Shown: in pieces, positions 13,864 to 20,632 of the stretch
Layout of the letters: each line of letters begins with the position of its first letter
Position numbering within the stretch: position 1 is the first letter of the stretch
Source: Streptomyces sp. NBC_00536
GTDB taxonomy: Bacteria > Actinomycetota > Actinomycetes > Streptomycetales > Streptomycetaceae
NCBI RefSeq assembly: GCF_036346295.1
Contig: NZ_CP107819.1
Location: forward strand, 7,812,001-7,876,000
DNA: 64,000 nucleotides
Direction: 5' to 3'
Translations under genes and position numbers: made by a program
Notes under the pieces: generated by a model
Seen by the model: the letters and a program-made list of their open reading frames with translations, nothing else
Database searches by the model: none
Told to the model about the DNA's origin: nothing

Positions 13864-15858
13864 TCAGCCGCCGACGTGGATGCCGGGGCGGCGGGCGGGG
13901 TCGGGCTCGTGCTTGCGGATGATCTCGCGGGTGACGGGTGCGGTGTCGCCGCGGCCGAGGAGGAAGTAGCGGAACATGTGGGTCAGCGGGCTGCCCTCGG
14001 CCCACGCGAAGTAGCAGTGCGGCTGGACTCCGGTCGTGTCGCGCAGGGCGAGCAGGATGGCGGCGATCGCGTTGGGCGCGGCGGGCGCCGCGGCGCGCAG
14101 GACCCGGTACCCGTCGACCTCGACTCCCCGGACGGTGAGGACTTCGCTGAAGTCGGAGGGGTCGACCACGTCGATTTCCAGGAACATGACGTCGGCGGGG
14201 CCGGGCACCGGGTTGTTCCCGCGCTGTTCGCGCTCCTTGTCGGCGTATTCGGGGCCGTCGCCGGTCTGGCGGCGGTTGGCGATGATGTTGATGGCGTTGT
14301 CGTACACGATGGTGTCGGTGATGAACTGGCGGGCGGCCGGGTCGAAGACCAGGTGGTCCGCGCGGAGTTCGGTCGTGCGGGAGACCCGGGAGACCAGGGA
14401 CACCACGACGATGCCGGCGATGAACAGGCCGGATATGGCGATCCCGTCGGGCTTGTCGACGATGTTGGCCACCAGCGCGTAGAGCAGGACCGCGGTGAGC
14501 AGGGTGAATCCGACGGTGGCGGCCCGCCGGCGGCGCCGGAAGGAGGAGACGGTGACGGCGAAGGCCCCGGAGACCATCATGGCGAGGATGCCCGTCGCGT
14601 AGGCGCCGGCCTGCGCGTTGACGTCCGCGTCGAAGGCGATGGTGATGCCGACGCACAGGACGGTGTAGACGAAGACGACGGGCCGAACGGCGCGTCCCCA
14701 TTCGGGCGCCATGCCGTAATCGGGCAGGTAACGCGGGACGATGTTGATCAGGCCCGCCATCGCCGACGCACCCGCGAACCAGAGGATCAGGATGGTGCTG
14801 ATGTCGTAGACGGTGCCGAAGGTCTGTCCGACGTGCTCGTGGGCGAGCCAGGCCAGGGCGCGGCCGTTGGCCGCGCCGCCGGGCTCGAACGCCTCGTGGG
14901 GGATGAGGACGGTGGTCACGAAACTCGCGGCCAGCAGGTAGACGCTCATGACGAGGGCGGCGGTGCTCAGCAGCTTGCGCGTGTTGCGGATGCGCTCCCG
15001 CAGCCGCTCTTCGGGATCGGCGCCCTCGGCCGCGACGAGCGGCATCATGCTCACCCCCGTCTCGAATCCGGAGAGGCCGAGGACGAGCAGCGGGAACGAG
15101 AGCAGGGCGGGACCGAGCAGCCCGCCGAGGCCGCCTCCGCCGTTGAAGAGCGCGTCCGTCCACGCCGACCAGGCGCCCGGCGTGGTGATCACGTCCACCA
15201 CGCCCACGCCGATGGTCACCGCGTTGAGGAGGAGGAAGACCGCGACCAGGGGGATGGCGACGCTGACCGCCTCGCTGAACCCGAGCAGGAACACCCCGCC
15301 GAGCAGCAGGAGCAACGTCACGGTGATGGCCACTTCATGGCCGTGCAGTGCCTGCGGGAAGAAGGGGTTCTCGACCACGTGCACGGAGGCGTCCGCCGCG
15401 GACAGGGTGATCGTGATGATCCACGAGGTGGCCACGAAGCCGAGGAGGACCAGGACGAACAACTTGCCCCGCCAGAACGGCAGCAGGTCCTCCAGCATGG
15501 CCACCGACCCGGCGCCGTGCGGGCTCTCGTGCGTCACGCGGCGGTACATGGGCAGCATGCCCAGCAGGGTCAGCGCGACGATCACGAGGGTCGCCAGGGG
15601 TGACACCGCCCCGGCCGCGAGCGCCGCGATCGCCGGTACGTAGGCCAGGCTGGAGAAGTAGTCCACTCCGGTCAGGCACATCACCTTCCACCAGGCGTGC
15701 GACTCGGTGTGCCCCTCGCCGGCCCCCGGCCCGATCGGCTGCACCCGGTGCCGGAGCAGCCACCGCGCCAGGCCGCCGTTCGGCTGCGCCCGCAACGCCG
15801 GGCTCTCCATCACTTCTGGCACGGCCAGTTCGTCGCTCGCCTGCTTCATGTCCCCCAT
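13864..15858 (-). CDS. APC-superfamily amino acid/polyamine-type permease
   Basis: 664 residues. A short cytosolic start, then [28 protein letters not shown], the first conserved APC helix (only a part quoted), and about 12 hydrophobic segments to around residue 470. A soluble C-terminal domain of roughly 190 residues follows, with [11 protein letters not shown] and [18 protein letters not shown], as in large APC permeases of actinobacteria. The ATG at 15858 has GAGGGAAGGG upstream; the frame extends a little further without a ribosome site. Substrate unknown. A TACCCC/GGGGTA dyad lies 84 bp upstream. Confidence 0.8.
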
Positions 15859-15941
15859 CAACCCTTCCCTCGCCGAGTCCACCGGGCCCGGCCGCCACCG
15901 CACTCACGGCAACGACCACCGAGTATGCGACCTCGCTTCCG

Positions 15942-15962: not shown

Positions 15963-16049
15963 TGCGCGCCCCCACGTGTCCGTGGCACGGGTCGGCGTGG
16001 GATACGATTGACCTCGTACTCGCGGCCGGGATTCCCGGTGGTGGGGCTC

Positions 16050-16119
16050 GCGTTGGTGGTCCAAGGAAAGGCACCCCACTTCCCGTGGGGGGATGCAGGT
16101 GCAAGGCCTGCCCAGCGCT
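16050..16119 (+). tRNA. tRNA-Gly-like gene with GUGC T-loop
   Basis: A 70-nt cloverleaf can be drawn without a mismatch. Acceptor GCGTTGG/CCAGCGC has one G-U. The D arm is GTC/GGC with loop CAAGGAAA, containing G18G19. The anticodon arm is CCCCA/TGGGG with loop CTTCCCG. There is a 4-nt variable loop, and T arm GCAGG/CCTGC with loop TGCAAGG. The anticodon reads UCC (glycine); a shifted reading gives CCC, also glycine, with one A-G mismatch. G1-C72, C2-G71, U73, C35 and C36 are the known bacterial glycine identity elements. Odd points are G55 in place of U55 (GUGC instead of GTPsiC), C37, and a minimal D-loop. CCA is not encoded. It lies alone, opposite in strand to its neighbours, 8 bp before a strong terminator. 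Confidence 0.6.
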
Positions 16120-16127
16120 CGATCAAG

Positions 16128-16159
16128 GCCCCGGTCTCCTCAGGGAGACCGGGGCTTTT
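16128..16159 (+). terminator. Intrinsic terminator, 12-bp stem plus T tract
   Basis: GCCCCGGTCTCC (16128-16139) pairs perfectly with GGAGACCGGGGC (16144-16155) around TCAG, followed by TTTT. It is one of the few hairpins in this window with a U tract. It begins 8 bp after the tRNA-like gene, marking that as a short independent transcript. Confidence 0.9.
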
Positions 16160-19444: not shown

Positions 19445-20632
19445 ATGAGTGAATCCCTCCACACCGTCACGGCACTGCCGACGGAGCGTCGGTCCGGCTG
19501 CCCCTTCGACCCGCCGGCCGGACTGACCGAGGCCCAGGGGCACGGCCCCCTGAGCGCCTTCACGCACCCCGGTGGCAGGCCCGGCTGGCTGATCACCGGA
19601 TACGACCTGGTCCGGTCGGTCCTGGCCGACCCGCGGTTCAGCTCGCGCAAGGACCTGCTGAACGTGGTCGACTTCGAACTCCCGCCGGCGCCGCCCGGCG
19701 AGTTCCTCCTCATGGACGAGCCGCAGCACGGGCGCTACCGGAAACCGCTGGTGGGCAAGTTCACCGCCCGGCGGATGCGGCTGCTCACCGAGCGCATCGA
19801 GCAGATCACCAACGACTGCCTCGACGCCATGGAGCGGTCCGGGCCGCGGGCGGACCTGGTGACCGCGTTCGCCAAGCCCATCCCCACCATCGTCATCTGT
19901 GAGCTGCTGGGGGTCCCCTACGAGGACCGGGACTCCTTCCAGGAGCAGATCGACAAGTTCATGAACGGGGAGACGGGCGACGAGGACCTGCTGGCGGCCT
20001 ACACCGCGACCCAGGAGTACCTCGCCGGGCTGGTGGCCGCGAAGCGCGCGCACCCCACCGACGACGTGCTCAGCGAACTCACCGACAGCGACCTGAGCGA
20101 CGAGGAGCTGCAGGGGATCAGCCTGATCCTGCTGGCGGCCGGTTTCGACACCACCGCGAACATGCTGGCCCTCGGGGTCTTCGCGTTGCTCCAGAACCCG
20201 GAGCAACTGGCCGCGCTGAGGGCGGACCCCGCGCTCATCGACCAGGCGGTGGAGGAACTGCTGCGGTACCTGAGCGTGGCCAAGTCCTTCATGCGGACCG
20301 CGCTGGTGGACGTCGAGCTGGGCGGTCAGACGATCAAGGCGGGGACGACGGTCGTCCTGTCGTACAACACCGCCAACCGCGACCCCGAGCGCTACGCCGA
20401 CCCCCACGCGCTCGACCTCCGGCGGGATTCCGGCGGCCACCTCGCCTTCGGCCACGGCATCCACCTGTGCCTGGGCCAGCAGCTGGCCCGCATCGAGATG
20501 CGGGTCGCGCTCTCCGCGCTGCTGGCCCGCTTCCCCGCGCTGCGCCTGGCCGTACCGGCCGAAGAGGTCGCCGTGCGCCCGGAGAGCGCGGACATCCACG
20601 GGGTGAAGAGCCTCCCGGTCACCTGGGCCTAG
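19445..20632 (+). CDS. Cytochrome P450
   Basis: 395-residue soluble bacterial P450. The heme-thiolate loop is FGHGIHLCLG (Cys near residue 344), the I-helix oxygen-activation motif is LLAAGFDTTAN, and EELLR is the K-helix ExxR. The start, CPFDPPAGL, resembles CYP105/CYP107-like enzymes. It would hydroxylate or otherwise oxidise a small molecule using ferredoxin partners encoded elsewhere (none adjoin). The ATG at 19445 follows AAGAGGAACGG. Its stop overlaps the convergent TetR gene by 4 bp. Confidence 0.92.
   Translation: MSESLHTVTALPTERRSGCPFDPPAGLTEAQGHGPLSAFTHPGGRPGWLITGYDLVRSVLADPRFSSRKDLLNVVDFELPPAPPGEFLLMDEPQHGRYRKPLVGKFTARRMRLLTERIEQITNDCLDAMERSGPRADLVTAFAKPIPTIVICELLGVPYEDRDSFQEQIDKFMNGETGDEDLLAAYTATQEYLAGLVAAKRAHPTDDVLSELTDSDLSDEELQGISLILLAAGFDTTANMLALGVFALLQNPEQLAALRADPALIDQAVEELLRYLSVAKSFMRTALVDVELGGQTIKAGTTVVLSYNTANRDPERYADPHALDLRRDSGGHLAFGHGIHLCLGQQLARIEMRVALSALLARFPALRLAVPAEEVAVRPESADIHGVKSLPVTWA

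Follow-up and report, generated by a model that had tools for sequence, protein, structure and literature searches.

The RNA gene and its flanking elements

The window analyzed here, a 64,000-nt stretch of the genome of Streptomyces sp. NBC_00536, carries a tRNA-Gly(UCC)-like RNA gene, which lies between a putative promoter element and a terminator-like hairpin. The features of the locus, all on the plus strand, are given below.

16003..16008 (+), -10-like hexamer TACGAT, putative, starting 47 nt upstream of the RNA
16019..16045 (+), leader hairpin between the putative promoter and the RNA
16050..16120 (+), tRNA-Gly(UCC)-like RNA of 71 nt, supported by ARAGORN, family searches, and covariation; U73 is 16119
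16079..16085 (+), anticodon loop CTTCCCG; U34, C35, and C36 are 16081–16083, and C37 is 16084
16095..16111 (+), T-arm with the pairs G49-C65, C50-G64, A51-U63, G52-C62, and G53-C61 (stem GCAGG/CCTGC)
16100..16106 (+), T-loop TGCAAGG, with G at position 55 (16101)
16125..16159 (+), terminator-like hairpin of 15 pairs followed by TTTT; fold of -31.4 kcal/mol, z -7.5

ARAGORN called tRNA-Gly(tcc) at 16050–16120 on the plus strand. A sequence-only reading of this locus had drawn a cloverleaf with the glycine identity bases G1-C72, C2-G71, U73, C35, and C36 and had left the anticodon as UCC or CCC; all of these bases are present, and the anticodon is UCC. Direct reading also bore out the altered T-loop with its G55, the C37, and the short D-loop. 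The acceptor stem is GCGTTGG/CCAGCGC, followed by U73, and T8, G9, and A26 are present; the D-stem GTC/GGC has three pairs and closes the D-loop CAAGGAAA, which is short and retains GG; the anticodon stem is CCCCA/TGGGG, and the variable region is GGAT. The window RNA is thus a cloverleaf with a 7-nt anticodon loop. Its folding energy is unremarkable (z -0.95, with 30 of 200 shuffles equally good).

The Infernal-type check that had been suggested for this RNA came out negative with the Rfam tRNA model RF00005, which gave no match to the window RNA even at E ≤ 1. A whole-genome search with RF00005 produced 68 matches at E ≤ 0.01, and neither own-genome copy of the window RNA was among them. When relatives with a 6-nt anticodon loop were searched with the same model, one (L189) scored 35.7 against the gathering cut-off of 29 and another (L178) was without a match; ARAGORN called none of four such loci (L172, L178, L184, and L189). 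Among 47 distinct own-genome tRNA sequences, taken as the ARAGORN calls in the fetched part of the 68 RF00005 loci, 46 have a UUCRA T-loop, the sole exception being the window RNA. Position 37 is A in 37 of them, G in nine, and C in one, again the window RNA. A second odd tRNA-Gly of this genome, the core-locus family A described below, is missing from this comparison because ARAGORN makes no call on it. Elsewhere in the window, ARAGORN called a tRNA-Arg(acg) at 19566–19639 (+) within an open reading frame (19445–20632) that looks cytochrome P450-like by eye; this is probably a false call, since the whole-genome RF00005 search omits it.

The gene had been described as solitary, but the genome holds two copies. 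The second, at G000:C1:8115564, is identical over 71 of 71 nt, and the adjoining flanks agree closely (43 of 47 nt on the upstream side, 33 of 34 nt on the downstream side), while only 21 of the next 47 nt upstream are identical. Because identity is confined to the near flanks, a transcription-unit cassette of ∼165 bp appears to have been duplicated.

The -10-like element was defined as a hexamer of the form TA...T that agrees with TATAAT in four or more of its six positions. Of 221 distinct family leaders, a set that includes related strains and is thus non-independent, 190 have such a hexamer; it starts 40–61 nt upstream of the RNA, with a mode of 47. In controls, it occurred in 18 of 2000 random 120-mers and in 27 of 221 shuffled leaders. 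The leader of the window RNA (16011–16049) folds at -19.9 kcal/mol (z -1.85, 7 of 200 shuffles equally good), and ccggAActcccGg is part of the consensus leader of the 195 members whose anticodon loop has 7 nt. For 221 distinct members, the mean folding energy of the 70 nt downstream is -41.4 kcal/mol, compared with -27.0 kcal/mol for 330 random stretches. CCA is encoded in 87 of the 221 copies. A generic promoter and terminator scan reported neither a promoter nor a terminator in the part of the window that it covered. The strong U-tract terminator claimed for the gene was upheld as to its hairpin and not as to its U-tract, which consists of only four T.

Conservation of the cloverleaf and of glycine identity

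Covariation was counted on 62 distinct sequences found with a pattern that demanded TGCAA in the T-loop, YAAG at the start of the D-loop, and U73, with minimum pairing of 6/7 in the acceptor stem, 3/3 in the D-stem, 4/5 in the T-stem, and 4/5 in the anticodon stem. The demanded features and the pairing are thus partly imposed, whereas the double changes are not; members and relatives with other loops (L120, L364, L365–L369, and L195–L197) lie outside this count. When the T-loop demand was dropped, GUGCAA was present in 26 of 26 covariance-model loci (E below 1e-12).

All 310 cells of the anticodon stem were paired, with 47 double changes, and none of 2000 shuffles was as good; for this stem, the sequences were aligned by hand because MAFFT sets the gap of the 6-nt type inside the stem. 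In the acceptor stem, 433 of 434 cells were paired and 31 double changes were counted, which no shuffle out of 2000 equaled. The T-stem gave a weaker signal: 306 of 310 cells were paired, with 2 double changes, and 18 of 2000 shuffles did equally well. The D-stem gave no covariation signal among the 62 sequences. A second count over the acceptor, D, and T stems found 33 cells changed on both sides, against 0 or 1 in slid-partner controls. These pair counts, too, include related strains and are non-independent. Both the pairing across relatives and the compensatory changes on which the sequence-only reading had staked its cloverleaf were thus found, in the acceptor and anticodon stems alike. 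These results indicate that the window RNA gene is a real, selected member of a family.

The bases G1-C72, C2-G71, G3-C70, and C35-C36 are invariant in all 62 distinct sequences; U73 is imposed by the selection pattern and was read directly in the window RNA. The bacterial glycine identity elements, as reviewed in the available text of PMC9976931, are covered by the family's invariant bases. GG is retained in the D-loop of 61 of the 62. The anticodon loop takes three forms, between which the D- and T-loops are nearly alike: a 7-nt loop CTTCC(T/C/G)G in 47 sequences, which is the window type, a 6-nt loop C(A/T)(A/G)CCG in 12, and a 6-nt loop CTCCAA in three. The 15 6-nt loops (CAGCCG in six, CAACCG in four, CTCCAA in three, and CTGCCG in two) retain CC. 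In the 47 7-nt loops, position 37 is U in 34, C in 12, G in one, and A in none.

Canonical tRNA-Gly species with the anticodons GCC, UCC, and CCC are all present in the genome, so that the window RNA is unneeded for decoding. These canonical tRNAs have G49-U65, C50-G64, and G51-C63 in the T-stem. In the family, the 49-65 pair is G-C in 62 of 62 sequences and the 51-63 pair is A-U in 60 of 62. According to the available text of PMC4052509, G49-U65 and G51-C63 are strong EF-Tu pairs that are replaced in the non-proteinogenic tRNA-Gly of S. aureus; that of PMC6097841 describes U73 as shielding Gly-tRNA from DTD. Judged by these features, the family resembles a glycine acceptor that is no longer a decoder.

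Distribution, neighbors, and candidate partners

A covariance model built from the window RNA was used for the distribution searches. In a sample of 245 genomes of the order, the model matched 130, all within one of eight genera; for one of the 130 (G343), what matched is another odd type of tRNA-Gly (L195). In a sample of the phylum, 8 of 346 genomes matched, in one genus of 218, and in a sample of the family, 22 of 121 genomes matched, in three of 17 genera. In two further genera of the family, three genomes hold clear members (L364, L370, and L371) and three more hold a different odd tRNA-Gly (L365–L369). The odd group formed by L195 (1501–1571), L196, L365, and L366–L369 has a D-arm of the form GTG...CAC, anticodon loops of 6 or 7 nt, and a T-loop of TTCAAGT, TTCGAGT, or, in L365, TGCAAAT.

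At a threshold of 1e-6, 159 of 199 genomes matched, and ∼108 of the 199 hold the RNA family after weak matches are set aside; as counted among the matches listed, the weak ones (E 6e-9 to 9e-7) account for 51 of the 159 genomes. Searches over more than 40 genomes ran with stricter filters, by which weak matches were lost. When 18 weak-match genomes were searched again, 20 of 20 matches were a core-locus tRNA-Gly, and of three others inspected, two held another odd tRNA-Gly and one a tRNA resembling the core-locus type.

This core-locus tRNA-Gly(UCC), here called family A (L227, G000:C1:4343534–4343607 on the minus strand; homologues L201–L220), is located upstream of a tRNA-Gly(GCC). It has a D-loop AGTAGYA, A37, A51-U63, and GUGC in the T-loop, and GG is absent from the D-loop in nine of nine aligned sequences. 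A T-arm with a bulged U and a loop TGCAATT can be drawn manually but does not form in the computed fold. The RF00005 model matches family A. In one sample, 25 of 25 Streptomyces genomes carried it at ≥100 bits, and the other 16 genomes stayed at or below 73.3 bits; the matches listed for the phylum sample include nine from Streptomyces above 97 bits and a best non-Streptomyces match of 74.2. Family A is thus a candidate for a glycine tRNA of general use outside translation.

Among named genomes, a pattern scan listed matches in at least 120 stretches, of which 119 were from Streptomyces and one was from Actinacidiphila. The RNA family was also found on 66 Streptomyces plasmid records, with four to eight places each on the S. 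clavuligerus plasmid records listed, and genomes among the matches listed carry up to six copies. No match was found among 50,697 phage records, and the exact pattern had none in viral contigs. In this analysis, the RNA family was seen in Streptomycetaceae only. Paired copies ∼79–94 kb apart were noted on six contigs (G193:C1, G016:C4, G233:C19, G371:C6, G358:C83, and G032:C4); in the G193 and G016 pairs, one copy follows a tsaD-like gene and the other a malate dehydrogenase-like gene, as assigned by open reading frame clustering with Pfam searches on one member per cluster.

Clustering of the open reading frames within ∼10 kb of 41 loci, including that in the window, revealed no constant neighbor protein family outside clade-level synteny, which formed groups of at most seven loci; broader protein clusters lie at varying distances, and the largest covers 11 of the 41 loci. 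Pfam searches on 20 nearby proteins, including both window neighbors, gave unrelated families, and three of the 20, both window neighbors among them, had no match at E ≤ 1e-5. Neighbor types among the loci include groEL-type chaperonin, tsaD, mdh, LytR-type, GH3/sugar, MFS, and lipase genes. The 679-residue protein encoded at 13864–15903 (-) of the window, one of those without a Pfam match at E ≤ 1e-5, looks by eye like an APC-type transporter. Seven annotated plasmid neighborhoods had no product common to all; serine hydrolase, SDR/NmrA-type reductase, DUF4232, and IS3 transposase recurred in at least two of them. An eighth plasmid neighborhood, from S. clavuligerus, is unannotated. The envelope-gene context pointed out in the sequence-only reading did not recur, and no cell-wall gene is constant among the examined loci.

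Candidate partner genes were counted in 60 Streptomyces genomes, chosen by hand from the samples as 30 with and 30 without the window-type RNA. FemAB-family genes were present in all 60. FemAB matches averaged 4.1 per genome in carriers versus 3.6 in non-carriers (Mann-Whitney p 0.50, a statistic that ignores kinship), and 9 of 30 carriers and 10 of 30 non-carriers had one FemAB gene's worth of matches. In all 60 genomes, the GlyRS matches came as two segments of a single gene, so that charging would rest on the housekeeping enzyme. No extra Fem or GlyRS partner gene was found in the 60 genomes, and no transferase gene is linked to the RNA at the examined loci. Since the RNA is missing from almost half of the sampled genus, while none of the 60 genomes lacks FemAB genes, the window RNA cannot be the general FemX donor. 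Family A, being universal in the Streptomyces genomes sampled, is the better candidate for that part, and the window family may be an accessory supply or a specialized variant beside it.

Interpretation and comparison with known systems

The explanation that we tentatively prefer, at somewhat short of an even chance, is that the gene product is a glycine tRNA dedicated to a non-decoding role, which feeds non-ribosomal glycyl transfer. As its anatomy suggests, the RNA would be transcribed from its own promoter, end at its own terminator, and be matured by RNase P, with the CCA-adding enzyme acting where CCA is not encoded. The single housekeeping GlyRS would then charge it through G1-C72, C2-G71, U73, C35, and C36, with U73 also protecting the Gly-tRNA against DTD. 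The changed T-stem and T-loop would weaken EF-Tu binding, and the pyrimidine at position 37 or the 6-nt anticodon loop would impede decoding, so that the glycyl-tRNA stays off the ribosome. In the most speculative step, a non-ribosomal glycyl transferase would take the glycine; the likeliest putative taker is of the FemX type, which attaches glycine to peptidoglycan precursors, so that the RNA would serve peptidoglycan synthesis. Additional copies on chromosome arms and plasmids would increase the supply.

A non-translational reading is favored because the identity bases are kept, the T-loop and T-stem are altered, and relatives have 6-nt anticodon loops; on this evidence, family members most likely act as glycine acceptors with a task away from the ribosome. 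The sequence-only reading had likewise proposed a non-translational glycyl-tRNA, a part of its account that these features support, with a decaying tRNA as the alternative, which did not survive. Several points count against the preferred explanation. With its 7-nt loop, U33, and UCC, the window copy itself may still do some decoding; G18 and G19 are kept and the 49-65 pair is G-C, unlike in S. aureus; the T-stem covaries little and the D-stem not at all; the RNA is missing from almost half of the sampled genus; and neither FemAB numbers nor, at the examined loci, a linked transferase gene point to a partner.

Among the rival explanations, a tRNA-like regulatory RNA that is uncharged or barely charged and acts by binding protein or RNA is possible, although unlikely. 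The Bacillus cereus pseudo-tRNA tRNA-Other offers a precedent (available text of PMC3399842), and the 6-nt and tetraloop-like anticodon arms, the dispersed orphan gene with promoter- and terminator-like elements of its own, and a D-loop conserved very strictly, beyond the needs of glycine identity, would all suit such a role; however, the glycine identity set, with C35-C36 kept inside a changing loop, goes unexplained without charging, and the 87 of 221 copies that encode CCA also speak against it. It is rather improbable that the RNA serves as a glycyl donor for specialized metabolism instead of the cell wall, through Fem-like DhpK or Orf11 or peptide aminoacyl-tRNA ligases. Enzymes of this kind that use Gly-tRNA exist in Streptomyces antibiotic pathways (available text of PMC12945691), and the RNA is accessory, patchy, and found on arms and plasmids, but its neighbors include groEL-type, tsaD, mdh, LytR-type, sugar, and lipase genes, no protein family holds a constant position beyond clade-level synteny, and FemAB number does not track the RNA.

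A translating minor tRNA-Gly(UCC), perhaps for rare GGA or GGG codons or for a growth stage, would fit the 7-nt loop with U33 and UCC of the window type, the ARAGORN call, and the elbow bases G18, G19, and C56. We consider it improbable, because a canonical UCC tRNA is already present, A37 occurs in none of the 47 7-nt loops, 15 of 62 loops have 6 nt, the reported strong EF-Tu pairs are replaced, and RF00005 gives no match. Little weight can be given to a mobile or protective element, that is, a decoy against toxins or enzymes directed at glycine tRNA or a plasmid passenger: the 66 plasmid records, the up to six copies per genome among the matches listed, and the transcription-unit cassette duplicated in its own genome agree with it, whereas syntenic positions are stable within clades, neither the 50,697 phage records nor, for the exact pattern, the viral contigs gave a match, and 6-nt loops would make poor decoys for anticodon nucleases. 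A decaying tRNA, for which the altered T-loop and short D-loop might be taken to argue, was rejected as scarcely credible in view of the near-identity over many genomes and the compensatory changes.

Returning to the dedicated glycine tRNA, we consider it possible, though we would sooner doubt than assert it, that Streptomycetaceae possess a second glycine-tRNA system. This would consist of the broken-elbow core-locus tRNA-Gly and a mobile, multi-copy accessory family in which the anticodon arm has been freed from decoding (the 6-nt loops) without loss of the GlyRS contacts. The housekeeping GlyRS would charge both, and non-ribosomal transferases would be their only users. In the open-licence literature, judged by titles and abstract openings, we recognized no description of the window RNA; the available part of a paper on S. 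ambofaciens non-coding RNA (PMC8388888) contains no mention of it.

Staphylococci provide the best-known cases of glycine tRNAs dedicated to work outside translation, and here a family of such candidates occurs in the main antibiotic-producing genus. If the preferred explanation is true, the routing of glycine away from translation would seem to have had more than one origin and to have taken a mobile form; in the members with 6-nt loops, charging would be naturally uncoupled from decoding, and the steering of glycyl-tRNA to cell-wall or antibiotic synthesis would become directly testable. The family is missed by RF00005 in its window form and by ARAGORN in some other forms.

Non-proteinogenic tRNA-Gly isoacceptors of Staphylococcus aureus were reportedly described by Giannouli et al. 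in 2009. In the staphylococcal non-proteinogenic tRNA-Gly, as in the window family, GUGC replaces GTpsiC. As given in the available text of PMC4052509, the S. aureus species have A49-U65 and A51-U63, and their G18G19 is changed to UU or CU. Like the window family, they are extra Gly tRNAs beside a canonical set, and the two share U73, glycine identity, and A51-U63 (available texts of PMC4052509, PMC9976931, PMC6097841, and PMC3656896). In contrast, the window family keeps G18G19 (61 of 62), which is lost in S. aureus, and has G-C at 49-65 (62 of 62) in place of A-U. The staphylococcal parallel of the sequence-only reading thus stands for A51-U63 and not for the loss of G18G19, although family A does without GG. 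Because it retains G18G19, the window family is not filed with the staphylococcal non-proteinogenic tRNA-Gly; by its features, it would work like that tRNA. Unlike the staphylococcal system, it has relatives with 6-nt loops, and its genes are dispersed and partly plasmid-borne; its Fem use is putative.

The Bacillus cereus tRNA-Other is, like the window RNA, an orphan tRNA-like RNA with a proposed extra-translational role, but it is a non-glycine RNA with a Trp anticodon and poor lysine charging in vitro (available text of PMC3399842). The canonical Streptomyces tRNA-Gly(UCC) (L024) shares the anticodon UCC and the glycine identity bases with the window RNA and differs from it in having a UUCGA T-loop, A37, G49-U65, G51-C63, and a D-stem of four pairs. 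Family A resembles the window RNA in its GUGC T-loop, A51-U63, and UCC, with strong matches confined to Streptomyces in the samples; unlike the window RNA, it has a T-arm with a bulged U, no D-loop GG, A37, and a core locus, and it is visible to RF00005 and invisible to ARAGORN.
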